Both the position numbers and the translations under genes were made by a program. Below the pieces are notes generated by a model, which searched no databases, was not told where the DNA came from, and was given only the letters and a program-made list of their open reading frames with translations. Shown piece by piece: positions 20,049 to 33,120 of a stretch of 34,699 nt of DNA (positions are counted from its first letter, which is position 1; the number at the start of each line of letters is the position of its first letter). Source of the stretch: Desulfamplus magnetovallimortis. Lineage in GTDB: Bacteria > Desulfobacterota > Desulfobacteria > Desulfobacterales > Desulfobacteraceae. The DNA lies in the NCBI RefSeq assembly GCF_900170035.1, contig NZ_LT828565.1:1-34699 (forward strand), read 5' to 3'.

Positions 20049-20123
20049 GGCCCCATCGTCTAGCGGTTAGGACGCTGGCCTCTCACGCCGGAAGCAGGGG
20101 TTCGATTCCCCTTGGGGTCACCA
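20049..20123 (+). tRNA. tRNA-Glu (anticodon CTC)
   Basis: Full cloverleaf of 75 nt with encoded CCA. The acceptor stem GGCCCCA pairs with TGGGGTC. The anticodon stem CTGGC/GCCGG carries the loop CTCTCAC with anticodon CTC at 20082-20084. The T-loop is GGGGTTCGATTCCCC. Its 3' end is the likely attachment site of the element that begins next to it. Confidence 0.97.
20106..20123. other. Candidate attL at the 3' end of tRNA-Glu
   Basis: Tyrosine integrases commonly insert at tRNA 3' ends and leave the gene intact. An integrase gene ends about 100 bp downstream. No second copy of the tRNA 3' end is visible elsewhere in the window, so attR must lie beyond 34699 or be lost. The boundary is inferred. 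Confidence 0.5.
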
Positions 20124-20225: not shown

Positions 20226-21356
20226 TCAATCATCAGCAGTAAGAAATTGATCAAGTTTTCCCATGGCTGCTTCCCCCTGTTCTTTATCAAGATGACTATA
20301 CCTGAGAAACATCTCATTGGTTTTATGCCCGGTCAATTTCATTATGACGGTCTGACTCACACCTGCTTTAAGCATGTTGGTATTAAATGAGTGCCTGAGA
20401 TCATGTATTCGATAATCAGGTACACCAGCCTTTTTACATGCCTTTTTGAAGAGACGCTGAATATACCATTTGGGAACCTGACTGCCGTCTGGTTTGGTAA
20501 ACACATAGTTATTTCCATTCCGATGCCCATTCATAGCCGCAGTAATGACGTTCTTTAACTCAGGTATCGAATTAAAATAAATACGCCGATGCTCTTCAGT
20601 TTTTGTGTCTTCCGGTGTCAGGTCAATGAACCCTTCGGCAATATTGACTCTATCGCAGGTCAAATCAATGAGTTCACCGCGTCGCATTCCAGTCATATAC
20701 GCTGCCGTAACAAAAGCCTGTAGGTACAGAGGAAGAAACGGTAGAATGGCTCTGAAATCACTTTCAGGAATATATTTACCTTTTGCTTCTTCCTTAAAAA
20801 CACCACGTCGAGCAAATGGGTTTGATTTGACTATCCCTGCATCCATACCCAGATAATATATCCGTCTTGCCAGGGACACCATTTTATTTATGGTGGTACC
20901 TGAATATGGCCTGCCTGTACTGCTGGAAATAGTTTTTGTCATCTTGATACGGAAGTTGTCCACCATAAGCGGAGTAATCTGAGCAGCCTTATGGTTTTCA
21001 AATTCTTTTACAAGATTGACAACCCTTACTCTGTCATCCGCTGCTGATGCTTTTATTTTCATCACTTCCTGATCAAGTCCCCAGTTTACCAACTCCTCAA
21101 ATGACATATCAGTATTGGGTTGAACCCCAAACTGTTCTACTTCCTGAAACTTGTCAGATTTAGTCCTGAAGAATTGTTCAGCCTTTTTCTTACTGAATGA
21201 TACTTTTTCAGTTCTGTATTTAATTTTCCCAGTTTTAGGGTCTCGTTCATGGGGATATTGTGCAAACCATGGCCCTTCCTTCTTTGGTTTACCTTTTTTA
21301 TCCAAGACAGCATTACCATTTTTGTCTTTTTTAATATATCTTTGAAATACACCCAT
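20226..21356 (-). CDS. int: Tyrosine integrase of the tRNA-Glu element
   Basis: A 376-aa phage-type tyrosine recombinase. The N-terminal DNA-binding region is Lys-rich (about 1-75), a SAM-like core-binding domain spans about 85-190, and the catalytic domain follows. Catalytic residues are visible: Arg225 (TGMRRGELIDL), His318 and Arg321 (IHDLRHSF), His344 (LTGHKT) and Tyr353 (LRYSHL). All are present, so it should be active. AAGGAG precedes the ATG. It points towards the tRNA and lies 102 bp from it, with an AlpA-like HTH gene just upstream. Confidence 0.95.
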   Translation of the reverse strand: MGVFQRYIKKDKNGNAVLDKKGKPKKEGPWFAQYPHERDPKTGKIKYRTEKVSFSKKKAEQFFRTKSDKFQEVEQFGVQPNTDMSFEELVNWGLDQEVMKIKASAADDRVRVVNLVKEFENHKAAQITPLMVDNFRIKMTKTISSSTGRPYSGTTINKMVSLARRIYYLGMDAGIVKSNPFARRGVFKEEAKGKYIPESDFRAILPFLPLYLQAFVTAAYMTGMRRGELIDLTCDRVNIAEGFIDLTPEDTKTEEHRRIYFNSIPELKNVITAAMNGHRNGNNYVFTKPDGSQVPKWYIQRLFKKACKKAGVPDYRIHDLRHSFNTNMLKAGVSQTVIMKLTGHKTNEMFLRYSHLDKEQGEAAMGKLDQFLTADD

Positions 21357-21793: not shown

Positions 21794-23383
21794 CTATTGA
21801 TCAGCCAAAATCCATTTTGGCCTATTTTGATCTTGAAATTCTGGTGTATGCCATATATATTCTGATGCTTCTAAAAAGTCACAAGATTTAGGATGCCTAT
21901 AATATGCACCTAACCTTCCTATATAAATATTTTTTTCCCACTCAAGATAATCCTCTAAATCTATTCCTTCTTTTTTGATTACACTGATAGCTGTTATGAC
22001 TCTTTTTATAAGCATTGAACGAGATTTTTCAGCATCATGGTCAATTTGAATTTCTTCTTTACCAGTCTTTTTTTCATAAAGCATATTTTTGTAATATTTT
22101 AATAATTTTTTTTGATGATCCAATTTCTCCTTACAAGTTAAGTTATCTTCCATAGTTAAGTTATCTGAAAAAAGCGATTCTTCAAGTACACTTATTTTTT
22201 TTTCGATTAGTTTTATTCGTCTTTCGATTTTTTTAATTGTTATGTTTTTTAATTTACCATTTTTTGATATATAATAACTAACTCCGTATACTAAATTATC
22301 ACTATATGCTTTATCATATTTTTTGTTTGGTAATTTATCAGGATGATGTTGACCAGAAGTAGTAAGTTCAGCAACATGTAATAACCGGTTAGGATTATTT
22401 AATAAATAACGAATCTGTTCAAAGCCTAACTCATCATCTATCTCTTTAGTTTTTCCTTGAAAACCAATAATCCATTTTTTGTCATCTTCTTTTTTTTTAT
22501 AAAAACAGATTATTACTTCATCATTTTTATCATTAAGTGACAATGATGTTTTTGCTGTATTATCATTTTCTAAAGAAGAATAAGCTGATCGAAGTGTAAT
22601 ACTCAAACAGCCTAAAGTTATTAAAGATGATCTCTCTAATACGCCTTTATTTACTTTGTATGCTTTTTCGATTGAAGCTTCAATTTCCTCGTAAATTTCA
22701 GAAATACCGCCAGGCCAATCATAATTCATTAAAGCATCCATAGCATCTGGAGCAAACGTAATTGAATTAATCTCTTTTTTCCGACAAATGTTATTCATGA
22801 TTAAATTAGCAAGCTCTTTTATTCTATTTGGCTGTTGATTTAAAGGCAGGATCTTTTCAGGAATAGAAAAATTAAATTCAAAAGGGCTAAAAAAATCATT
22901 TGGAATATCTATTTCTTCTAAATCTGTAGATAAAATTAATCGGGCATCAAATTGTTTTGTCTCTGTTGAATTGATAGGTAGATAAGATTTGTCAGTTTTA
23001 TAAGTAAGTGCTATTAACTCTTTTAGGGATTCTGCTGGTAACAAGTTGATGTCATGTAAATATAAAGTCCCCTTTCCAGCCAGTTCTATTAACCCTGGAT
23101 GAAATTTTGATTTATTATTTTGTTTTGAATACTCTACATACCCAAAAATATCTTGTTTAGCACGTTCAGGATCTTCATCAATATTGCCGATGATAAATGG
23201 AAATTCATTCAGGATACCAACTTGATGCAATATCTCCGCATAATCCTTTTTCCCAGAACCTTTTTTACCATATAATAACTTATGTCTATCTTCATAACGA
23301 TCGAATCTATGTTTGTCAAATAAGGCTCTCTCATAACCTTCTTGATCTCCAGTTAGTAGCTTATGCAATATTTCATCATCCAT
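21794..23383 (-). CDS. Degenerate sigma54-activator-like AAA+ protein
   Basis: 529 aa from ATG 23383 (an in-frame TTG lies at 23416). Residues about 30-260 resemble the AAA+ domain of bacterial enhancer-binding proteins. A Walker A-like YGKKGSGKKDYAE is followed by AGKGTLYLHDINLLP at the Walker B position (usual form GTLFLDEI), a sensor-like FDARLILSTDLEE, and DYDWPGGISEIYEEIE matching WPGNVREL. The GAFTGA loop that contacts sigma54 is missing, so it is unlikely to activate sigma54 promoters. The C-terminal half has no recognised domain and contains a Lys/Glu-rich coiled coil near 390-450. Unusually AT-rich. 39 bp downstream of the small recombinase gene. Confidence 0.6.
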   Translation of the reverse strand: MDDEILHKLLTGDQEGYERALFDKHRFDRYEDRHKLLYGKKGSGKKDYAEILHQVGILNEFPFIIGNIDEDPERAKQDIFGYVEYSKQNNKSKFHPGLIELAGKGTLYLHDINLLPAESLKELIALTYKTDKSYLPINSTETKQFDARLILSTDLEEIDIPNDFFSPFEFNFSIPEKILPLNQQPNRIKELANLIMNNICRKKEINSITFAPDAMDALMNYDWPGGISEIYEEIEASIEKAYKVNKGVLERSSLITLGCLSITLRSAYSSLENDNTAKTSLSLNDKNDEVIICFYKKKEDDKKWIIGFQGKTKEIDDELGFEQIRYLLNNPNRLLHVAELTTSGQHHPDKLPNKKYDKAYSDNLVYGVSYYISKNGKLKNITIKKIERRIKLIEKKISVLEESLFSDNLTMEDNLTCKEKLDHQKKLLKYYKNMLYEKKTGKEEIQIDHDAEKSRSMLIKRVITAISVIKKEGIDLEDYLEWEKNIYIGRLGAYYRHPKSCDFLEASEYIWHTPEFQDQNRPKWILADQ

Positions 23384-23422
23384 AATTTTACCAATATAGC
23401 TTTTGATTATTGTCAATCAATA

Positions 23423-24028
23423 TTACCCAATCTCATTCCTAAGTATCCCATTAACTTCCTTGTCATGGATGCCGAGATACCGCATGGTCACAGAGGGACT
23501 GGAGTGATTAAATCGTTTGGCAAGCACTTCAAATCCTACTCCAAACTGTGTCCTCTGAATATATCCAAAGGTTTTCCTCAAAGTGTGGGCTCCGTAATTT
23601 TCTTTCAGTCCGATTTCCGCAGCCCATTTTTTCACCATATTATTTACACTTTGGATAGTCAATGCACCTTTCCCCTTCCTGCTGGAAAACAGGTAATCCT
23701 CATCATCAGGGGCGTAATCTTCAAGATATTTCTGGAGTGCCTTGAAAACTGTCTTGTTGATCGCCAGCACATTTTTCTTTTTTGTCTTACCCTCAACCAT
23801 AGTAAGGGTATCTCCGGCAGACAATCCTTTCACCTGTCCCACCTTCAACTGTAGCAAATCTCCAACACGCAGTCCATTGTTGATTCCCATTAAAAACAAA
23901 AGCTGGTCTCTGGGTTTATCATTCAACCGTCTGACAATCTTTTTAATATCCTTCTCCCGCCTTATGGGTTCCACTGTAATTCTGGAGCCCTTTTTGGGGT
24001 GATTCGGATTCTTGATCTCTTCATTCAT
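23423..24028 (-). CDS. Catalytic-domain-only tyrosine recombinase
   Basis: 201 aa from ATG 24028, which has GGTGG 5 nt upstream; four more codons are open to 24040. The catalytic set is complete, numbered from the 24040 start: Arg58 (INNGLRVGDLL), His152 and Arg155 (GAHTLRKTFGY), His179 (FNHSS) and Tyr188 (TMRYLGI). The core-binding domain is almost absent, as in small Xer-like integrases of phages and plasmids. It heads a short operon with the AAA+ gene. It differs clearly from the integrase at 20226 and may act on another site, such as resolution or inversion. Confidence 0.88.
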   Translation of the reverse strand: MNEEIKNPNHPKKGSRITVEPIRREKDIKKIVRRLNDKPRDQLLFLMGINNGLRVGDLLQLKVGQVKGLSAGDTLTMVEGKTKKKNVLAINKTVFKALQKYLEDYAPDDEDYLFSSRKGKGALTIQSVNNMVKKWAAEIGLKENYGAHTLRKTFGYIQRTQFGVGFEVLAKRFNHSSPSVTMRYLGIHDKEVNGILRNEIG

Positions 24029-24212
24029 AAAAACCACCATATATATTAATTTTTTCTATAAATATTTATAATAGTTAAGATTAAAAATCAATTATTTTTT
24101 TGGGCAGTGTATCTATTTGAGTTTAACTGTTTGATATTGTTTTAGAAATGCTCAATAGATGAATCCTAACTTTTACACAGAAGTTAAGATTGATTTAAAA
24201 CATAAAATGGTA

Positions 24213-24241: not shown

Positions 24242-24321
24242 CAATCAAAACCAATAGAATATAGACGACGTACACCTGCTGATTATTGATAAGGCTTCAT
24301 AAAAGTATGTGGGGGACAACC

Positions 24322-24648
24322 ATGCTTAAAAGATACATTACAGAGCTTAAAGATATTTTAATTAAACTTAATCCATATAAAGCAATTCTATTCGGTTCTT
24401 CTGTATCTGGAGATTTTACAGATGAGAGTGACCTTGACCTGATTGTGATTCTGGAAAAAAATGATATGCCCAGGAATTTTGATGAAAGAACTCACAATTA
24501 TTCATGGGTAAAAGAATTTCTTAAGCCTTTAAACAATAAGGTTCCCATGGATATTATAGTTTATACAAAACCTGAGTGGAGTAACTTTATGAAGGCAGAC
24601 AACTCGTTTACAAGAGAGGTGCTGGAAAAGGGGGTAGTGCTGATATGA
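24322..24648 (+). CDS. MNT-type nucleotidyltransferase (HEPN partner)
   Basis: A 108-aa minimal nucleotidyltransferase of the pol-beta superfamily. The active site is GSSVSGDFTDESDLDLIV, with Gly25-Ser26 and metal ligands Asp37 and Asp39; a third Asp (77) is in PMDIIVY. All catalytic residues are present. The start is ATG 24322 with GGGGG upstream. It overlaps the HEPN gene by ATGA. Such pairs act as toxin-antitoxin or defence modules (in characterised HepT-MntA pairs the MNT protein AMPylates the toxin). The function here is inferred from pairing. It is on the opposite strand to all other element genes. Confidence 0.8.
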   Translation: MLKRYITELKDILIKLNPYKAILFGSSVSGDFTDESDLDLIVILEKNDMPRNFDERTHNYSWVKEFLKPLNNKVPMDIIVYTKPEWSNFMKADNSFTREVLEKGVVLI

Positions 24649-25037
24649 GACACTCTGTTCTGTCGTGGCTTCAGGCTTGTGAGGAAGATTTAGCTGCGAC
24701 AAAGGTTTTAATGCAAAGTAAACTGGCAACAGGTGCTGCATGTTTCCATGCCCAGCAATGCGTGGAAAAGAGTTTTAAGGCCGTTCTTGAAGAGCATACT
24801 AAAAAAGTTCCAAAAATTCATGATTTAAGCAAACTTTTATATGAGGTTGAAAAATATATAACTGTTGAAGTAGATACCTTGATTATTGACAAACTTAACA
24901 TGCTATATATTGAATCACGATATCCAGGTGCATTCGGTTATTTACCAGAAGGAAAACCAGGTATTGAAGATGTTGAACAATTCTATGATTTTGCGAAATA
25001 CATTTACAAAACGATCAAGGCATATTTAGAGCAATAA
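24645..25037 (+). CDS. HEPN-domain protein (MNT partner)
   Basis: A 130-aa helical HEPN protein with typical motifs HAQQCVEKSFKAVLEEH, PKIHDLSKLL and SRYPGAFGYLPEG. The Rx4-6H RNase motif of toxic HEPN ribonucleases is not evident, so ribonuclease activity should not be assumed. It overlaps the MNT gene by 4 bp (ATGA), so the two are translated together. It ends 117 bp from the convergent helicase gene, with a hairpin between them. Confidence 0.8.
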   Translation: MRHSVLSWLQACEEDLAATKVLMQSKLATGAACFHAQQCVEKSFKAVLEEHTKKVPKIHDLSKLLYEVEKYITVEVDTLIIDKLNMLYIESRYPGAFGYLPEGKPGIEDVEQFYDFAKYIYKTIKAYLEQ

Positions 25038-25094: not shown

Positions 25095-25154
25095 GATAAG
25101 TTTTGTAAATTATTTGTTTTATTTATGATATTTCTTTTGTTTGTATATCTTTTG

Positions 25155-26999
25155 TTAATTCAAGATTTCATCCAGAAACCTTGACCTTTTCATGTTTTTT
25201 CCACTGTAAACTATGGGATGAGACAGATAGAGCCTTTCCATGGCTCTACTCATACCCACAAACGCAACTCTGCGTTCTTCCTCTATCTCCCCTTGCTTAT
25301 GGGGGAGCATTCCTTCCATAAGTCCTATCAGGAACACCACAGGGTATTCCAGCCCCTTGGACTTATGAATGGTCATCAGTGATACTCCCTCTTTATTATT
25401 GCTGATCTCTTCCCTGAATGTTTCGGTGTAGTTGATTAAATCCGAAATATTTTTATACTTCCCTGCAACCATTGTAAGCTGGTTTATGTTATCCATTTTT
25501 GAGTTGTCAATGCTTGGCACATCGTCATCTGAAATGAACTTGTCATACTCAAGACCTTCCCTCAATAGATAGAGCATCTCCGCAGGTTCCAACTGGTCTT
25601 TATCCTTGATCAACTGTCCCATGAATCCCACAAACTTTCTCACAATCTTCTTGAGATATGGAAGGTTTATGGGCATACGTTTCAGAGCTTCATAAAGTGA
25701 AACATTGTTTTTTTCACAGTATTCATCAAGCTCATTTATCAGGGTTTTCCCAATATATCTGTTAGGAATATTGAGAACCCTTCCAAGTGCTTCATCACCT
25801 TCATGGGAATCTGGGTCATCAATGAATTTAAGATAATCCAGAAGCACCTTTACTTCAAACCTCTGGTAGAAGCTCTGGGCATTCTCTATGTGGTAGGGAA
25901 TGTCATGTTGCTTAAAGCTGTCCTCGATTGGTCTGCTGAGTGAATTTGCACGGTAGAGTACCGCAATATCCTTGAACTCATAACTATGACCATGTTTTTG
26001 TGTAAGTGCCTTCACTTCATTGACAATTTGCACTGCCTCATCATCTTCATTGGCTGCTTCAATTATCACTGGTTTGTCTCCCGATTTATTATTTGTCTGT
26101 AGTTTTTTATCAATTTTTTTGACATTATTATCAATTAATTTCTGACACGCATCAAGTATCTCCGGTGTTGATCTGTAATTGACATCAAGTATAAATCGTT
26201 GACAATCAGGGAATATCTTGTCAAAGTTTAAAATATTACTAATATTACCACCAGTAAAGCTGTAGATACTTTGAGAATCGTCCCCACACACCCAGAACGA
26301 AGTTCTTTTGCCGTTATATATTAATAACTTAACCACCTCTGCCTGTAATGGAAAAGTATCCTGGAACTCATCCACAAGGATGTGACTAAAGGTGCGATGA
26401 TACTTTTCCCTAACCTCATCATCACTGGATAACAGATTATATGTTTCCAGTAGAAGATCATTGAAATCCTTTAACAGCTTCTTCTTTTTGGACTTTTCAT
26501 AATAATCGTATATGGCACCTATGGCAGACATGGTTTCATTATCTGCATGGACAGCCTTGAACTCCTCAATACTTACCATGTTGGATTTAGATAAATTTAT
26601 CTCACTTAATACCAATCCTGTTGGTATATGCCGTATTTTTAGATTTTTCATTATCTGTCTAAGAAACTTTATCTGTTCTGTTCCTGAAAGTATTTCAAAG
26701 GTATAACCTTCCTGTTTCAGCAATGAGTAAGCGAAGCTGTGGGTAGTCATAAGCTTTACCCTTAAAGCCTCTTCATTGAGTATTGGAATCAGTTTTTCCT
26801 GCATCGACCTTGCAGCATTTCTGGTAAAGGTTAGTCCCAAAATTGATTCTGGGGATACATTATGTTTCTTTATCAGAAGTGAAATCCTGGTTGCCATGGT
26901 GAGCGTTTTTCCTGCTCCAGGAATACTGATAGTACATGCGATACCATACAGAAATTCAGCAGATGCTCTCTGCCTTGGGTTTAACTTGATCTGTTGCAT
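25155..26999 (-). CDS. UvrD/Rep-like superfamily 1A DNA helicase
   Basis: A 614-aa ATP-dependent 3'-5' type helicase. Motifs in order: I SIPGAGKT (Lys31), II LVDEFQDTF, III CGDDSQSIYSFTGG, IV DVNYRSTPEI, V SLMTIHKSKGLEYPVVFL and VI RVAFVGMSRAMERL. It is shorter than UvrD (about 720 aa), with a trimmed C-terminus. The start is ATG 26999, preceded by GAGGTGAT at 7 nt; GTG 27011 and ATG 27008 are in frame but sit on the ribosome binding site. It is the last gene of the recombination operon, directly after the Fe-S nuclease. The pairing recalls AddAB/RecBC split into separate chains. Confidence 0.93.
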   Translation of the reverse strand: MQQIKLNPRQRASAEFLYGIACTISIPGAGKTLTMATRISLLIKKHNVSPESILGLTFTRNAARSMQEKLIPILNEEALRVKLMTTHSFAYSLLKQEGYTFEILSGTEQIKFLRQIMKNLKIRHIPTGLVLSEINLSKSNMVSIEEFKAVHADNETMSAIGAIYDYYEKSKKKKLLKDFNDLLLETYNLLSSDDEVREKYHRTFSHILVDEFQDTFPLQAEVVKLLIYNGKRTSFWVCGDDSQSIYSFTGGNISNILNFDKIFPDCQRFILDVNYRSTPEILDACQKLIDNNVKKIDKKLQTNNKSGDKPVIIEAANEDDEAVQIVNEVKALTQKHGHSYEFKDIAVLYRANSLSRPIEDSFKQHDIPYHIENAQSFYQRFEVKVLLDYLKFIDDPDSHEGDEALGRVLNIPNRYIGKTLINELDEYCEKNNVSLYEALKRMPINLPYLKKIVRKFVGFMGQLIKDKDQLEPAEMLYLLREGLEYDKFISDDDVPSIDNSKMDNINQLTMVAGKYKNISDLINYTETFREEISNNKEGVSLMTIHKSKGLEYPVVFLIGLMEGMLPHKQGEIEEERRVAFVGMSRAMERLYLSHPIVYSGKNMKRSRFLDEILN

Positions 27000-27018
27000 T
27001 GATATCATCACCTCTCTT

Positions 27019-27822
27019 TCAATTTAGTAGATATTCCCTGCATTGGTTTGCAAATTCACAGTAGTTGCATTTCCATGTTCCCTGGGCATTGGGCAGAAAC
27101 ACTTCCTTCTGGATTCCGTTCCATGTTTCTTTAATGATCTTGATTGTACGCTTTTCATCTTCTTCACTGCGGTGTGTGTAAATTTGCTTGAACTGTGGAG
27201 TCTTGGTTTTCATAAGACAATCCAGCTTTAAGACTATATCATTATTTGCATAACCGTTCTTCTTTGCAGCCAGGTAATAAACCGATAATTGAAAGTTTTG
27301 ATCAATTTCATTTATGGTTACTGATGAAGACATTGTTTTATAATCGCTTATGATAATGGTATTTTGTTCATCTCTTTCAACCAAGTCCATAATTCCAATA
27401 ATTGGTATGTCAATATCGTCAATATTAAATCTAAATGGTTCTTCAACGGCAAGAATCTCGTACTCGTCTTTTGGCACCTGGGATATAAAAGTCTTGATCA
27501 TCTCTTTACCCTGTTGAAGTAGTACATCAAAGTTCTTCCCCCTTGAGTATCTGATATCAGGTGTTTTGTTTACATTTGCAGTCCAGTAGTGTTCAAACAA
27601 CTCCATGAGTTCCTGTGCTGACAGGGTATTGCCCATGAGCTTTTCTTCATTATAGTCTGAAAGCACCTGGTGTATTGTACTTCCGAAGATAAGGTTATCT
27701 GATGTAAACTCCCTTGTTACTTTTTCAACTCTGGAAAACTTGTACTGCAATCCACAACCGTTGTAGCTCTGGATACTGCTGGCTGAAAGATGCGGCATTG
27801 ACCTTAACGTTGAAATATTCAT
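27019..27822 (-). CDS. PD-(D/E)XK nuclease with Fe-S cysteines (AddB/Cas4-like)
   Basis: A 267-aa RecB-family exonuclease. The core is PIIGIMDLVERDE followed by IIISDYKTMSS (Asp and DYK catalytic residues), with QLSVYYLAAK as the conserved Q/Y helix. Four cysteines fit the 4Fe-4S arrangement of AddB, Cas4 and Dna2: Cys23 (YNGCGLQYKF) and Cys252, 255 and 261 (WKCNYCEFANQC). GAGG precedes ATG 27822; an in-frame TTG at 27846 is less likely. It lies 19 bp ahead of the helicase start and probably works with it in end resection. Confidence 0.88.
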   Translation of the reverse strand: MNISTLRSMPHLSASSIQSYNGCGLQYKFSRVEKVTREFTSDNLIFGSTIHQVLSDYNEEKLMGNTLSAQELMELFEHYWTANVNKTPDIRYSRGKNFDVLLQQGKEMIKTFISQVPKDEYEILAVEEPFRFNIDDIDIPIIGIMDLVERDEQNTIIISDYKTMSSSVTINEIDQNFQLSVYYLAAKKNGYANNDIVLKLDCLMKTKTPQFKQIYTHRSEEDEKRTIKIIKETWNGIQKEVFLPNAQGTWKCNYCEFANQCREYLLN

Positions 27823-27951
27823 TGTTAAATATCCTCTAATATTCAATAGTTTATCTTGGTCATAGAGAGTAGAAACAGCTATCCTGCTGATTTATCTCTA
27901 CTCTCTGGTTTCAAATTTTAGTTATTGATTTTTTATTTCAGAATGGAGTGA

Positions 27952-28713
27952 TCAAGCTGCCTGTTGGAGCTGCTTGATAAATGCCGATGCTTCATTGGAA
28001 GAAAGTTTCTCAAGGGGAAGTCTGAAAGCATCTTGAACCATTTTGTCAAGTTCCTCATCAGGTATGCCTTTCCTCTTGCCAAGGTTTGTAATTGCCTTTA
28101 TCTGGGCTGTACTTGCCTGGGGAGATGTGTTGCTGATACCTGTTTGTCTGATCGGTTTTTCTGTTGCTTCTTCCTTCTTGGAATCTGGTTTCTGAGTTTT
28201 CTGATCTTTCTTCGGAGTCGCTTTTGGTTCCTTTGGAGTTTCATTTATATTATTTTCCTTTCTGTTGTTTACATTAACAGGTTTTCCTTTGGATTGCCTT
28301 TTAGGTGGTGTAGAGCCATTGTTTCCACCAATGACCTGATCTAAATCCCCTAACTCTTCCAATGCAGTCATCCCGATATTAGTCATGTCTCTTAATGCAC
28401 GAGCTTTAGCTCTTGTTGCAGCCATACGCAATATATGTTCTGCTATCATACGATTAACGTTTTTAGGAGATGCGTCACCTATTTCAGTGAACACCTGCTC
28501 ATTTTTTGATGTGACTATAGCCATACAGATTGCTTCCATACCGTTTTCCTTGGTAGGATATTGTATTGGCTCAATCTTGATGCTCTTGATTCCAATCTGA
28601 TGCCCAAGGTCGAGAAGCCCGCTATATAATACGAAATCTTTACCTTTAATATTTGATATGAATTGTTCCTTTAGTTTTGGACATGATTTCCCGTTTTCAT
28701 CGTTCTCAGCCAT
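27952..28713 (-). CDS. Putative Rad52-like single-strand annealing protein
   Basis: 253 aa. An N-terminal alpha/beta domain (about 1-125) with VTSKNEQVFTEIGDASPKNV and ILRMAATRAKARALRDMTNIG resembles phage and mobile-element Rad52/annealase-type proteins. A basic, Pro/Lys/Asn-rich linker (about 130-200) follows. A small C-terminal helical module (STAQIKAITNLGKRKGIPDE... EASAFIKQL) of a type often attached to phage recombination proteins ends it. GGGAGG precedes the ATG. It lies between SSB and the nuclease, the expected place of an annealase. The family assignment comes from pattern and context and is not certain. Confidence 0.6.
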   Translation of the reverse strand: MAENDENGKSCPKLKEQFISNIKGKDFVLYSGLLDLGHQIGIKSIKIEPIQYPTKENGMEAICMAIVTSKNEQVFTEIGDASPKNVNRMIAEHILRMAATRAKARALRDMTNIGMTALEELGDLDQVIGGNNGSTPPKRQSKGKPVNVNNRKENNINETPKEPKATPKKDQKTQKPDSKKEEATEKPIRQTGISNTSPQASTAQIKAITNLGKRKGIPDEELDKMVQDAFRLPLEKLSSNEASAFIKQLQQAA

Positions 28714-28732
28714 TTAAACCTCCCTTGCTCCC

Positions 28733-29107
28733 TTAAAAGGGTACATCTTCATCTGGTGATTGAGGAACATAATTATTATTTTCTGAATTGTTATCCTCAA
28801 AGCCTCTGCCGTCTGTTTTGATGAATTCGATGATATTTGCAATCACCTTAAAAGTAGATTTTTTGTTTCCATAATCGTCTTCCCATTTATCCTGGTCAAG
28901 CATTCCTGATACAGCTACTTTTGCACCTTTATGAAGGTATCTTTCAGCCAAGTCTGCTGTTTTCTTAAAGCATGTTATTTTTACCCAGTTTGTCTTGTCC
29001 TTTGTGCTTTTAAAAGCCAGCGAGAAGCTTGCGATATGCATGCCTTCATTTGTGTAGAATATTTCCGGGTCTGCACCGAGATTTCCTGTAAGTATTATTT
29101 GATTCAT
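28733..29107 (-). CDS. ssb: Single-stranded DNA-binding protein
   Basis: A 124-aa OB-fold SSB. The N-terminus MNQIILTGNLGADPEIFYT, the NWVKITCFKKTADLAERYLHKGAKVAVSG core and the acidic tail ending DEDVPF, which recruits partner proteins, are all typical. It is shorter than chromosomal SSB because the linker is brief. The start is ATG 29107 with AAAGGA upstream; the frame extends to 29158 without support. It is an element-borne copy, 19 bp ahead of the annealase-like gene. Confidence 0.95.
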   Translation of the reverse strand: MNQIILTGNLGADPEIFYTNEGMHIASFSLAFKSTKDKTNWVKITCFKKTADLAERYLHKGAKVAVSGMLDQDKWEDDYGNKKSTFKVIANIIEFIKTDGRGFEDNNSENNNYVPQSPDEDVPF

Positions 29108-29117
29108 AATTATTCCT

Positions 29118-29465
29118 TTAACTGATATAAATACATTTTGTAATATTGTGAATTTCAAGTATCTTTTTTGCCAGATACTCGTCTCTTGTTGCTATATCAA
29201 TAATCCCAAAAGCGATTATTGCCTTCATTTCCTCGTATTTCTCCAACGGGATTTTAATAGATGAAAGGTTTTTCTCAATTATTTTTACAGTTGTTATTGG
29301 GTCTTTTAGACACTTGCTGAATCTTTCAATCCTGCTTGCAAGTGCATATGTTGTTTTTCTTATGTCATCGTGAATCCTTTGGTCTGGAATCCTGTTAAAT
29401 GCTTCAAGGCATTCCAGCAGCAATGATTCATACTCAGAACTATTTTTGTATTCTAATTTATACAT
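29118..29465 (-). CDS. Unknown 115-aa helical protein of the recombination operon
   Basis: No family recognised. Predicted mostly alpha-helical and charged, from SSEYESLLLECLEAFNRIPD to DIATRDEYLAKKILEIHN. No signal peptide, membrane helix or metal motif. The start is ATG 29465, with GGGGGTATC rather far upstream; the frame is open to TTG 29510, which would overlap the preceding gene. Ten bp separate it from ssb and 22 bp from the DUF3150-like gene, so it is a true operon member. Confidence 0.65.
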   Translation of the reverse strand: MYKLEYKNSSEYESLLLECLEAFNRIPDQRIHDDIRKTTYALASRIERFSKCLKDPITTVKIIEKNLSSIKIPLEKYEEMKAIIAFGIIDIATRDEYLAKKILEIHNITKCIYIS

Positions 29466-29487
29466 TATGTATCTGATACCCCCTGTG

Positions 29488-30411
29488 CTATATTGCCATT
29501 TCTTCCTCAAACAGTTCTGTTTCTAAAGGTAGAGGATCAATTTTAAGTTTCCTTCTGGGCATATCCTGTATGGAATCCTCAAGACTATCTTTCAGGTTTT
29601 CCATGTCACTGCGGATACTGTCCCTTAAATTTTGTGAATATTTAAGACTATAGGGATTTGTATTATTGATGATCTGCCTTGCTTCCTCTGCAAGCAGGGT
29701 CAGCTCCTGATCTTCAAAGAGGTTCCTTGTTCCAAGATCATCAAGGAAATCATTAATTTTATTGAACATGTTGTTCGATATAACCCTGGGTCTTTCTCCA
29801 TTGCTGTCTAATCTCTCCACAAGGTGAGTTACCACCTGTGAAAACTCTTCCTTTAAAGCTGCAACCGCAGTCTCTCTGGTCTCTTCAATCATTTCCTGAA
29901 AACGCTGTTTTTCACGTTCATATATGGCAGGTGAAAGAATGGTTGTTTTTCTTGGGAGATCAACTGTCATGTAGCGCCACTGGAACTTGAACTTTGATCT
30001 GATATCCACTGGATAATCTGTTTCATCGAAAAGCTCTTTTAGAACCTCCCTTGCGTCTTCCATGCTTCTTTCATAGATTGCTTCAAAATCAGCATAAGAG
30101 TCCCAGAACCTTGCTTCAAAGTACTGTAACCGTTCGTCAATTACACTTAATGATTCTTTGGGCACCAAGTAAATACCCCCAACGGGGAATGGCAATGAAT
30201 ATTTCTTGATAGTGTTCCTTGCCTGCTGGGTTGCAGTGTTAATTGGCCCCAGAAGGGTTGGGTCAATTAGATATTTCTTCCCACGGAGCCACTCGGCATC
30301 CTCACCGATCTTATCAATTAGAACTGAATGATTTATGGCTTTGCTGGTTCTCCATACAGATGTTGAAAGCTGTACAAGACATGCTTTCCTGAAAAGTTCC
30401 TTATAATCCAT
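29488..30411 (-). CDS. DUF3150-like protein
   Basis: A 307-aa protein resembling the DUF3150 family of phages and mobile elements. The N-terminus has LSTSVWRTSKAI, WLRGKKYLIDPTLLGPI and SLPFPVGGIYLVPKESL. The middle and C-terminal parts are long charged helices with coiled-coil character (EREKQRFQEMIEETRETAV; LRDSIRSDMENLKDSLEDS). No catalytic motif is visible, which suggests a structural or DNA-associated role. The start is ATG 30411 with GGAG 7 nt upstream. It lies between DUF2997 and the 115-aa gene. Confidence 0.6.
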   Translation of the reverse strand: MDYKELFRKACLVQLSTSVWRTSKAINHSVLIDKIGEDAEWLRGKKYLIDPTLLGPINTATQQARNTIKKYSLPFPVGGIYLVPKESLSVIDERLQYFEARFWDSYADFEAIYERSMEDAREVLKELFDETDYPVDIRSKFKFQWRYMTVDLPRKTTILSPAIYEREKQRFQEMIEETRETAVAALKEEFSQVVTHLVERLDSNGERPRVISNNMFNKINDFLDDLGTRNLFEDQELTLLAEEARQIINNTNPYSLKYSQNLRDSIRSDMENLKDSLEDSIQDMPRRKLKIDPLPLETELFEEEMAI

Positions 30412-30496
30412 TTTTATTCTCCATTTGTTATTTATCATCATGACCCAACCAGTTGATGATTGAGTCATGGAGGTTTAACTTATGCGGTTAATGTGA

Positions 30497-30694
30497 TTAT
30501 CCGCAAAGGGGAAGATGCCGTCTTACAAGCTCCCTGTTTCTCATGTAAAACGCTGGCACTAACTCCCTTTCTACTTCACTGCCCAAAAGGTCTTTCACAA
30601 ATTGAGAGGATTCAAGGCATTCACTTCCTGTAAATCCCTTTGTCTCAACATGCACCTCTCCGTCTGAACAAATATCAATGATGATTTGTTTCAA
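30497..30694 (-). CDS. DUF2997 small protein
   Basis: A 65-aa protein with the DUF2997 pattern: a short beta hairpin (KQIIIDICSDGEVHVETKGF) and then GSECLESSQFVKDLLG. The start is TTG 30694, with GGAG 7 nt upstream. Members are commonly neighbours of DUF1257 and of Ycf46-like ATPases, exactly the order seen here. The function is unknown. The C-terminal tail of about 20 residues after LLGSEVERELVPAFY looks lineage-specific. Confidence 0.8.
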   Translation of the reverse strand: MKQIIIDICSDGEVHVETKGFTGSECLESSQFVKDLLGSEVERELVPAFYMRNRELVRRHLPLCG

Positions 30695-30761
30695 TTTGAT
30701 TCTCCAGATTGTAATTATGGTTTTTGATTTTTGGATAATTGGAAGGGAAATATTGCAGGTG

Positions 30762-31187
30762 TTATGACATGCAGAGGGAAAGTCTGATCTTGTTGTTTCT
30801 CATCTGTTTTTCAATCATACGATAACCCTTTTGCTTTGCTGATCTTTTTACAGATTCAACAGCATAAGCTTGTTTCAGTATTCCTGCATCTTTTCCAATG
30901 TACTTTTGCAGACCACCACCTATCCAGCTATCCCAAAGCAGGATATATTTGTTGTTCTTTTTAACAACGCCGATCTCAAAGGTGGCAGCAGGTACATGGA
31001 TAGCATGGGTACAGTGTCCCAGTTGCTCTTCTGTGATTCCTTCCGGTAATGGTTCCTGTGAAATCCATTTCCCATACCAGATATAACGTTTCTGGTTCTC
31101 CATGAAATGGAACCCAAGCCTTTCACATGCCTGCTTAAGTGCTTCCAGGTCTTTTATTTCAAGCTCTATTTTAGAAATATGCGACAT
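30762..31187 (-). CDS. DUF1257 protein (Ycf35-like)
   Basis: 141 aa. The start MSHISKIELEIKDLEALKQA, FHFMENQKRYIWYGKW and HAIHVPAATFEIGVVKK fit DUF1257, the family of Ycf35 encoded in red-algal plastids and cyanobacteria. The biochemical function is unknown. GAGG precedes the ATG. It lies 12 bp after the Ycf46-like ATPase gene, so the two are co-translated neighbours. The conserved trio Ycf46-Ycf35-DUF2997 inside a recombination operon suggests one complex, by inference. Confidence 0.85.
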   Translation of the reverse strand: MSHISKIELEIKDLEALKQACERLGFHFMENQKRYIWYGKWISQEPLPEGITEEQLGHCTHAIHVPAATFEIGVVKKNNKYILLWDSWIGGGLQKYIGKDAGILKQAYAVESVKRSAKQKGYRMIEKQMRNNKIRLSLCMS

Positions 31188-31199
31188 CTCTTTTCCTCA

Positions 31200-32624
31200 C
31201 TATGATGCAGCAGGAACAACATGGATTTTCCTCTGTTCCTGTGGTTCAATATCAGCTGTATTAGCAAGCCTTGCACGGTTATGTGCCCATTTTTGAAGAT
31301 TAGAAATCTCATCTTTCATGGTTCTTGAAAGTGGGACTATTGCTTCAAGGGCTGAATCTACACCGTCATACAAACTATCCTTAGCCAATTGTTCAATTTC
31401 AGCTCCAGAAAAACCATTCAGTTTCGGTGCTAATGTTGTTGAAATGTTTGAGTTGTATTTTTGATTCATGATTTTTATGATCTCAACTCGTTCCAATGTG
31501 GAAGGTAAATCCACAAAGAATGTTGCATCGAATCTTCCAGCTCTCAGAAATTCAGGTGGTAATTTTGTAATGTCATTTGCTGTAGCCATAACTATGCAAT
31601 TTCCTTTACTTTCCTGTAACCATGTCAAGAAGTATCCGAACATGTTTGCAGTTGAACCTCCGTCTGTTTCACCTGAACTTTTTGTTCCAGAAAACGCTTT
31701 TTCAACCTCATCGACCCAGACAACTACTTCTCCAAATGCTTCAATTACCTGTGTTGCTTCTCTCATTTTTCTTTCTGATTCACCTACAAGAGATCCTTTG
31801 AGTGAGCCTATATCAAGTTTTATAAGAGGCCACCCAAGGATAGATGCTGTTGCTTTACAACTTAGGCTTTTGCCTGTACCTGCGATTCCTGCCAAAAGTA
31901 TTCCTCTAAGGGGTGGAAGGTGCTCATTACCTGATTCATACGCAGTTGCTCTTTTTGCAATGAACTGTTTCAGGTTATTGAGTCCTCCAACCTCTCGTAT
32001 GTCAGCAGGTTCCCAGAACTCCATTAATCCAGACTTTCTAATCATTTGAGATTTTTGTTCTGAGATTATTCTTGTGGAACAATAGCCTTTCTTTATCAGT
32101 GATAAAGCATAGGCTGTTTCTGCTTCAAATTCAGTGAGCCCTTTTGCAATACGGGCTGCTTTTCGATTTGGCTTAATGTTTAAACTGCTGCATAGATCTT
32201 TTTGTAGCTCAAACAGTGCTTCTGTATCTGGTAAAGGAAGTTCAATTACAGTGTTAAATTTGTCTAATTCTGGAAGTATTGGAATGATTGGGGATATCAT
32301 TACAAGGGACGAACCAGAAGATTTCCAGCGAAGGGTTCCTGACTGTATAGCCTGTATAATGTCAGGAATCCGTGCCTCCAGAAACAGGTGCAGGTTATGA
32401 GCTATCAAAACTGAATCCTGCTGCATGTTAAGCCATTCAATAGCCTGAACAGGGTCACGTATACCTTCTATAATTTTATACGTTCCTGCTTTACGGATAC
32501 CTTGATTGCAGTCCCAGCTGTAAAATGTCCAGCCTTCACAGATAACGATATTTTCTGCTCTGTTTGGTTCCTGTGTAAGTAAGGTAAGCATGGGATAGCC
32601 TGCTTTAAGATAATCTTTTATCAT
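31200..32624 (-). CDS. Ycf46-like AAA+ ATPase
   Basis: A 474-aa two-part ATPase. The N-terminal domain (about 1-200) resembles the degenerate, nucleotide-free domain of Ycf46 (YPMLTLLTQEP; FYSWDCNQGI; DSVLIAHNLHLFLE). A classical AAA+ domain follows: Walker A GIAGTGKS with Lys252, Walker B VVVWVDEVEKAF with Asp305-Glu306, sensor 1 CIVMATANDITKLPPEFLRAGRFD carrying the arginine finger, and a C-terminal lid. All ATPase residues are intact. GAGG overlaps the end of the upstream gene, whose TAA is followed at once by this ATG. Probably the motor of the operon. Confidence 0.88.
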   Translation of the reverse strand: MIKDYLKAGYPMLTLLTQEPNRAENIVICEGWTFYSWDCNQGIRKAGTYKIIEGIRDPVQAIEWLNMQQDSVLIAHNLHLFLEARIPDIIQAIQSGTLRWKSSGSSLVMISPIIPILPELDKFNTVIELPLPDTEALFELQKDLCSSLNIKPNRKAARIAKGLTEFEAETAYALSLIKKGYCSTRIISEQKSQMIRKSGLMEFWEPADIREVGGLNNLKQFIAKRATAYESGNEHLPPLRGILLAGIAGTGKSLSCKATASILGWPLIKLDIGSLKGSLVGESERKMREATQVIEAFGEVVVWVDEVEKAFSGTKSSGETDGGSTANMFGYFLTWLQESKGNCIVMATANDITKLPPEFLRAGRFDATFFVDLPSTLERVEIIKIMNQKYNSNISTTLAPKLNGFSGAEIEQLAKDSLYDGVDSALEAIVPLSRTMKDEISNLQKWAHNRARLANTADIEPQEQRKIHVVPAAS

Positions 32625-32840
32625 TTACTGAATCCTCCATTTTGACATAAGGTGTATACTCAGGGGGCATCTGCCGCAGACCCAGTATTCTTTACCTTGT
32701 CCGTTTAATTGAGTTGTGATAATCCATTCTCCAATACGACTGCAAAACTGGCATTTTGTTTTTTCGATCTCCAATGGTTCTGTATCAAACATGATAAAAG
32801 GTGGTACATGGACTACATTCTCTAAAATTTCTGTTTCCAT
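32625..32840 (-). CDS. Small Cys4 (zinc-ribbon-like) protein
   Basis: 71 aa with two CxxC knuckles, CQFC and CGRC, about 25 residues apart in the order TKCQFCSRIGEWI... YWVCGRCPLSIHL. This fits a zinc ribbon. The N-terminal 25 residues are acidic and hydrophobic (ETEILENVVHVPPFIMFDTEPLEIE) and could be a docking segment. GGAGAAAGAACT precedes the ATG. It is the first gene of the operon, and its stop codon abuts the ATPase start, so translation is coupled. No named family recognised. Confidence 0.75.
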   Translation of the reverse strand: METEILENVVHVPPFIMFDTEPLEIEKTKCQFCSRIGEWIITTQLNGQGKEYWVCGRCPLSIHLMSKWRIQ

Positions 32841-32957
32841 AGTTCTTTCTCCAATTTTGTTGATTTTGTTAAAATTGAGAGAACCAAATAACCCACCAGC
32901 ATAAAGACGAATCTTTATTTTGATAGGTTGATATGGTTCCAGGGAGAGTGTGATACC

Positions 32958-32988
32958 TATCTATACATACTAAAATGATGTGTAGATA
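32958..32988. promoter_or_regulatory. Operator-like inverted repeat upstream of the recombination operon
   Basis: TATCTATACAT (32958-32968) and ATGTGTAGATA (32978-32988) are inverted with 10 of 11 positions complementary and a 9-bp spacer. It lies about 118 bp upstream of the first gene (start 32840). The site may bind a repressor; none is identified. Confidence 0.5.
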
Positions 32989-33120
32989 AATTCAGAATAT
33001 TGATAGAACGCATCTCTCACTTTTCATTAGACAATACTCTCAATGAGGATATTGAATAATGATCGGTGATTGAGTTATTTTATCTCTATTCTTTAGTGAT
33101 AATATCTATATGAAAATGAT

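Follow-up and report, generated by a model that had tools for sequence, protein, structure and literature searches.

Conjugative elements and phages recombine by means of annealase operons, which are also the basis of recombineering. In the SXT/R391 integrating elements the genes for a single-stranded DNA-binding protein (SSB), an annealing protein and an exonuclease (ssb-bet-exo, S064-S066) are arranged operon-like, and the exonuclease, Exo, is reported to be stimulated by Bet and SSB (PMC3118119). Here we analyse a 34,699-nucleotide stretch of Desulfamplus magnetovallimortis DNA (the window, which starts with the first base of contig C26 and may span it entirely), in which ten tightly packed minus-strand genes at 25155..32840 join an SSB, an annealase-like protein, a nuclease and a helicase to a Ycf46-type AAA+ ATPase and to members of DUF1257, DUF2997 and DUF3150, all three unknown-function families in Pfam. 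At roughly even odds (about 0.5), we read the ATPase group as an AAA+ remodelling module, accessory to a phage-type system for single-strand-annealing recombination that an integrated element carries. The ten genes are:

32625..32840, minus strand: 71-residue four-cysteine (Cys4) protein, the operon's first gene; no Pfam, PHROG or NCBIfam family
31200..32624, minus strand: AAA+ ATPase, Ycf46-like; Pfam AAA 80.5 bits, phrog_8638 4e-98
30762..31187, minus strand: DUF1257 (Ycf35-like) protein; PF06868 25.2 bits, cut-off 22.2
30497..30694, minus strand: DUF2997 protein; PF11211 43.9 bits
29488..30411 (open reading frame (ORF) 29488-30468, likely ATG at 30411), minus strand: DUF3150 protein; PF11348 48.0 bits, above the cut-off of 24.9
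29118..29510, minus strand: 130-residue protein (p130) of no known family, overlapping DUF3150 by 23 bp
28733..29107 (ORF to 29158), minus strand: SSB with C-terminal tip DEDVPF; PF00436 88.4 bits
27952..28713, minus strand: annealase-like protein; phrog_22961 1.8e-9 and predicted fold
27019..27822 (ORF to 27846), minus strand: PD-(D/E)XK nuclease with Cas4-like cysteines; PDDEXK_1 119.6 bits, Cas_Cas4 27.4 bits
25155..27011, minus strand: UvrD/Rep/PcrA-type helicase; UvrD-helicase 188.2 bits, PcrA 428.5 bits (under cut-off), phrog_1967

An earlier note on this DNA had described ten packed minus-strand genes, and all ten ORFs are in place, with neighbouring genes spaced by -23 to 129 bp, refined starts at 30411 (DUF3150), 29107 (SSB) and 27822 (nuclease), and Shine-Dalgarno-like runs upstream of most of the ten starts. 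Seven of the gene names it proposed are backed by the Pfam scores listed; its name "Rad52-like" is not, and the Pfam scan (E<=0.1 for 27952-28713) gives no family for that protein, the Cys4 protein or p130.

Comparison with described systems

The SXT/R391 operon uses other annealase and nuclease families, and the window adds to it a UvrD-type helicase, a Ycf46-type AAA protein, DUF1257, DUF2997 and DUF3150. The window is not an SXT-type ssb-bet-exo set: in Pfam its annealase has no RecT match, and its nuclease matches PDDEXK_1 and not YqaJ. The main text of the SXT paper is without the word "ATPase" (PMC3118119). On the IncA plasmid pRA1, as in the window, AAA+ and DUF3150 genes are interleaved with annealase and exonuclease, in the order CbbQ, hypothetical, Bet (RecT, 87 bits), Exo, DUF3150 (298 bits), VWA/CobT; but pRA1 has a CbbQ/MoxR-type AAA with a CobT-like VWA partner, whereas the window has a Ycf46-type AAA with DUF1257/DUF2997. 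The two AAA+ types fall in different Pfam families (AAA for the window, AAA_5 with CbbQ_C for pRA1).

The cyanobacterial Ycf46-Ycf35 and DUF2997-ycf35-fed7 loci share the AAA and DUF1257 families with the window (33-36% AAA identity over most of the length), but within the fetched stretches they have no DUF3150 and, by profiles, no recombination gene. The ferredoxin gene fed7 of Synechocystis is clustered with DUF2997 and DUF1257 (ycf35) (PMC4284462), and genes for Ycf46 and Ycf35 are reported from red-algal and diatom plastid genomes. In yeast, Cdc48/p97 is reported to take off SUMO-Rad52, a case of a Cdc48-type AAA protein working on an annealing protein (PMC5577460); the comparison is a functional analogy only, no SUMO or Ufd1 counterpart having been seen in the window and none searched for. 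A literature search, with most subscription papers outside it, returned no mention of DUF3150, three papers naming DUF1257 or DUF2997, and no description of the module.

Recurrence of the operon

DUF1257 is present three times in the D. magnetovallimortis genome. The copy on contig C30 (L011 340-8328) is 94.1% identical to window positions 25144-33117 over 8,008 bp, and the match covers the operon and its upstream region alone: the flanks differ, and C30 begins 339 bases before the match. A codon comparison of eight gene pairs (the ten genes less SSB and cys4) places the differences chiefly at third positions in seven (27/16/77 for the ATPase, 9/7/53 for the helicase), p130 being the exception with 2/5/7. 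This near-identical copy, its chiefly third-position differences and the recurrence of the core genes in G015 and G008 (below) speak for more than a chance arrangement. The third copy, on C28, is diverged (AAA 54.6%, DUF3150 35.3% identity to the window), and its recombination set is a different one: an ERF annealase (141.7 bits, the genome's sole ERF match), a YqaJ nuclease (135 bits) and an SSB; RadC flanks the locus at the opposite end.

The earlier note had joined a Ycf half to a recombination half, and the two do recur as a pair. Four further genomes contain the full eight-gene core, AAA-DUF1257-DUF2997-DUF3150-SSB-annealase-nuclease-helicase: G015 (core proteins 48-74% identical to the window, Cys4 gene 30%), L020 and L021 (metagenome-assembled genomes labelled Bacteroidota) and G336 (another family of the window's phylum). 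A fifth, G008, has seven of the eight at 54-63% identity; its AAA gene is cut off, the contig ending within DUF1257. A recount gives the same list of core-bearing genomes. Partial sets occur as well: annealase and nuclease in L025, nuclease and ERF in L026, and a Rad52 annealase (50.7 bits) directly upstream of the AAA gene in L016; a further Rad52 match is in L321 (58.6 bits). Among the loci scanned, homologues of the Cys4 protein appear only in L011 and L014, and p130 only in the window and the C30 copy. Annealase-based scans of viral contigs yield no locus with a single sequence as query and three with an alignment; the stretches fetched around these three lack the AAA module, and the idea that the complete operon resides in viruses is rejected on that result.

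DUF3150 as the carrier of the link

In the window the AAA gene stands beside DUF1257 and DUF2997, forming a Ycf46-Ycf35-DUF2997 module, and loci were collected with the AAA protein alone as query, from the best 80 of 557 genome relatives and the best 80 of 418 viral relatives; since only the best 80 were taken, each set is made up of those closest to the query. DUF1257 and DUF2997 both accompany the AAA gene in 25 of 80 loci in the genome set and in 42 of 80 in the viral set. Helicase matches below 60 bits were ignored, as were secondary AAA matches below 150 bits (genome and viral sets) or 230 bits (the phylum sample). Ten genome loci carry DUF3150, and all ten have at least one of SSB, annealase, nuclease and UvrD helicase (annealase in 4, nuclease in 7); by our profiles, none of the 70 without DUF3150 has a recombination gene. 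The phylum sample comprises 395 genomes, with DUF2997 in 45 of them at 59 places (55 fetched, the other 4 already in the set), of which 12 without an AAA match above 230 bits in the stretch were excluded and 47 kept. Here recombination genes, again by profiles, accompany 11 of 16 AAA loci with DUF3150 against 0 of 31 without. The two samples overlap in at least two contigs (L022/L235 and L027/L251 look the same).

Because the loci lacking DUF3150 gave 0/70 and 0/31, the link to recombination genes runs via DUF3150 and not via Ycf46, DUF1257 or DUF2997 as such, which corrects the picture of two directly linked halves; an association through DUF1257/DUF2997 as such is rejected. RadC-type JAB genes are also frequent beside the DUF3150 module, in 5 of 10 genome loci with DUF3150 and 1 of 70 without (L012, L017, L020, L021, L023, L024, L073, L252 and others).

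Searching with DUF3150 itself finds the family in 31 of the 395 genomes, at 43 places, of which 20 were fetched (L309-L328); L326 and L328, with no AAA label, were left out, giving 18 stretches with AAA and DUF3150, eight of them from one genus (g131). These reveal a second architecture, CbbQ/MoxR-like AAA - DUF3150 - VWA, so that two different AAA+ modules have DUF3150 in common. An annealase and/or exonuclease is present in 16 of the 18: ERF in eight, Rad52 with PD-(D/E)XK in one, and a nuclease recognised by a profile grown from pRA1 Exo in seven (five with SSB). Ten of these proteins were checked against Pfam and eight fall in a fitting family (two ERF, Rad52, four PDDEXK_1, YqaJ); the L324 exonuclease label (47 bits) is unconfirmed, and without it the count is 15 of 18. 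The L317 and L323 exonucleases and six of the eight ERF labels come from profiles and lie outside the Pfam check. An unlabelled 318-residue protein of no Pfam family, encoded between SSB and exonuclease (L309 14101-15054, L310 4774-5730), is a candidate new annealase. The IncA plasmid pE51_002 (L019 9959-12119) carries AAA and DUF2997 genes with a weak DUF1257-like gene between them (profile 2e-7; no Pfam match).

Exchange of the annealase

A quick-method AAA tree without bootstrap, built on 80 of 129 non-redundant rows (including 34 of 34 with DUF3150), places the window in a 12-row clade with a Shimodaira-Hasegawa-like approximate likelihood ratio (SH-aLRT) support of 99. DUF3150 is in every row; profiles recognise an annealase in seven (the window's type in four, ERF in two, Rad52 in one) and none in five. 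Such non-homologous exchange of annealase and nuclease argues for a functional link. It would be unlikely, in our view, that early mobile-element genes merely cluster here and that AAA-DUF3150 does an unrelated job, such as enzyme maturation of the MoxR-VWA kind or virion assembly. That idea draws on MoxR-VWA pairs that act on other enzymes (RavA-ViaA), on a jumbo-phage survey that proposes virion assembly for one such pair (PMC7824862), and on the lack of enrichment in the best 80 of 418 viral loci. It has to contend with the contrast of 0/70 and 0/31 without DUF3150 to 10/10 and 11/16 with it, with two different AAA+ types that keep the same DUF3150-annealase company, and with the absence of a virion gene among the ten proteins in Pfam and PHROGs. 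Moreover, the module stayed with annealases while the annealase family switched, which is unlike the prediction of simple linkage.

Properties of the individual proteins

The ATPase has Walker A at residue 246, the pore-loop-like motif SLVGESE at 278, Walker B at 300 and RAGRFD at 361. Ycf46 is the name that the earlier note gave it, no library model so named having matched. Its nearest solved relatives are p97/Cdc48 chains, and its best NCBIfam model is CDC48, at 66.6 bits over one stretch against a cut-off of 802.65; judged by these scores it is a relative, not a member, of the CDC48/p97 family. The sequence of its first 200 residues may represent a degenerate AAA domain.

The AlphaFold2 model of DUF3150 has a mean predicted local distance difference test score (pLDDT) of 88.9 and a predicted template modelling score (pTM) of 0.75, and its structural matches are viral proteins, one of them named DUF3150. 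A 275-residue protein of Mycobacterium phage Dylan ranks ninth in the viral fold search (E 8e-4, template modelling score 0.33-0.36). We infer that it is gp94 (L185 9310-10137), because both the length and the place, adjoining the AAA gene gp95, agree; gp94, missed by the sequence profile, is probably a DUF3150-fold protein beside a Ycf46-type AAA.

For 27952-28713 the prediction gives a beta-beta-beta-alpha core (low confidence), a linker and a C-terminal helical domain that, in the model, resembles the SSB- and exonuclease-binding C-terminal domain of Red-beta, and we call the protein annealase-like on that basis. It has no Pfam match to Rad52_Rad22 (PF04098), RecT (PF03837) or ERF (PF04404), and hhalign against six ERF proteins gives 1.3%. 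The family name "Rad52-like" is rejected, since besides the missing Pfam match the profile comparison shows only a C-terminal tail shared with two Rad52 proteins. Four homologues (L020 16849, L021 14542, L025 13313, L252 11430) have an extra N-terminal CxC...CxH zinc-finger-like domain, which we take to be SWIM-like. The nuclease, for which the Pfam scan gives no YqaJ match, has cysteines C31, C260, C263 and C269 (TTG-start numbering); these presumably fit a predicted iron-sulphur site of the Cas4/AddB type. TIGR00372 scores 41.8 bits, under its cut-off of 65.

Proposed mechanism

The recurrent, swap-tolerant link to annealase systems suggests a job for the ATPase and its DUF partners, possibly that of a ring acting on annealing proteins. 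In such a scheme the nuclease and UvrD-type helicase would generate single strands, which the element's own SSB would coat; the annealase, tethered by its Red-beta-like tail to the SSB C-terminal tip and to the nuclease, would pair complementary strands. The Ycf46-type ATPase would assemble as a Cdc48-like ring, to which DUF1257, DUF2997 and above all DUF3150 could serve as adaptors, bringing it to the annealase/SSB-DNA complex. The ring might load that complex, or dismantle it once annealing is done, clearing the way for polymerase and ligase. Red-beta is reported to hold annealed duplex tightly (PMC8034648). Genomics shows the gene content, the recurrence, the exchange of annealases and the presence of DUF3150 in both AAA+ modules, and modelling predicts the Red-beta-like tail; all physical contacts, the ring and the loading or unloading step are proposals. 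The idea in the earlier note of an ATPase group that builds or remodels a complex for DNA processing is, as an inference, the best-supported reading; the host-conflict role that it also offered finds no support.

A wider and more tentative proposal, possible rather than probable, is that DUF3150 is the shared adaptor of "annealase segregases", in which mobile elements took up two AAA+ engines, the Ycf46 type with DUF1257/DUF2997 and CbbQ/MoxR with VWA, for loading annealases or stripping them off. In bacteria these would play the part that Cdc48 plays for Rad52, and plastid Ycf46/Ycf35 would be domesticated relatives.

Several results weigh against the remodelling module and its adaptor. Five of the 16 phylum-sample loci with DUF3150 have no recombination gene (two are on contigs near 4 kb), nor do two of the 18 CbbQ-set loci (L314, L327). 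Two of the 11 phylum-sample positives (L244, L268) are weak nuclease scores alone, of 36 and 38 bits, and others are single-gene positives (SSB in L027, L073, L251 and L254; a helicase fragment in L022 and L235). The Fisher p-values for the contrast, 6e-13 in the genome loci and 2.5e-7 in the phylum sample, are both inflated by the relatedness of the genomes. AAA/DUF1257/DUF2997 loci without DUF3150 have no recombination gene by profiles, and so a part in recombination is not inherent to the ATPase. The DUF3150 model has no fold match in the PDB at E<=0.001, and the adaptor role therefore lacks direct support; the core of the annealase is modelled poorly (mean pLDDT 56.6). Finally, the viral loci (best 80 of 418, including repeats: four duplicate DUF3150 proteins were found, three among those 80) show no contrast, 5 of 32 with DUF3150 against 6 of 48 without, and the viral AAA module is situated among replication and ParB-like genes.

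This viral setting bears on a different idea, which we consider doubtful: that the AAA module remodels an initiator/helicase-loader complex at an element or phage origin, the annealase set merely lying in the same replication region. In RHph_I4 and RcDurkin the AAA-DUF1257-DUF2997 genes precede those for DnaB and DNA polymerase by a few kb and share their strand, and Dylan has ParB, Ku-like and DnaN genes nearby. The neighbours of the viral loci, taken as 128 representatives, include ParB-like, UvsX/RecA, RecT (one), primase/helicase, DnaB, polymerase and ligase proteins among the first 25 of 83 Pfam families and the first 25 of 191 PHROGs, the PHROG counts being primase/helicase 3, DNA polymerase 2, DnaB-like 2, UvsX-like 3 and ParB-like 4. 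In the window's clade, however, it is annealases that recur and are exchanged, and no DnaB or replicase was noticed in the gene lists of the clade loci, read by eye without a systematic search.

Genomic setting

The ten-gene cluster probably sits on a mobile element, whose possible integration site and integrase are:

20049..20123, plus strand: tRNA-Glu, possible integration site
20226..21356, minus strand: tyrosine integrase adjoining tRNA-Glu; PF00589 90.4 bits

The 23-mer at the 3' end of tRNA-Glu occurs once in the assembly, so no second exact attachment (att) site is found. Between this integrase and the operon, at 21794-24040, Pfam identifies an AAA protein of the sigma54 type and another protein with an integrase domain. 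At 24286-25037, on the plus strand, an MNT nucleotidyltransferase and HEPN pair (Pfam), likely a toxin-antitoxin pair, adjoins the operon. Taken with PADLOC scores of 272 bits for the helicase against GajB and 54.3 bits for the ATPase against IetA, that neighbour could suggest a cassette for anti-phage defence or counter-defence, in which the helicase would be GajB-like and the ATPase IetA-like. We regard this as very improbable: the UvrD and AAA scores are generic, the company kept is annealase, nuclease and SSB, and Gabija and Iet defence are rejected, their partners GajA and IetS having no PADLOC match among the ten operon proteins.

On the minus strand no terminator-like site is called in the DUF3150-ssb interval, and a promoter-like match (10/12) lies at 29278-29251, within p130 and upstream of ssb; terminator-like and promoter-like sites are both at the shuffled level (21 vs 25.5 and 7 vs 5.9). 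An inverted repeat found by eye, AGAGAGTAGA...TCTACTCTCT with arms about 23 nucleotides apart, occupies 27864-27906 in the 129-bp gap between annealase and nuclease genes. An IS4/5-type transposase gene lies past the operon.

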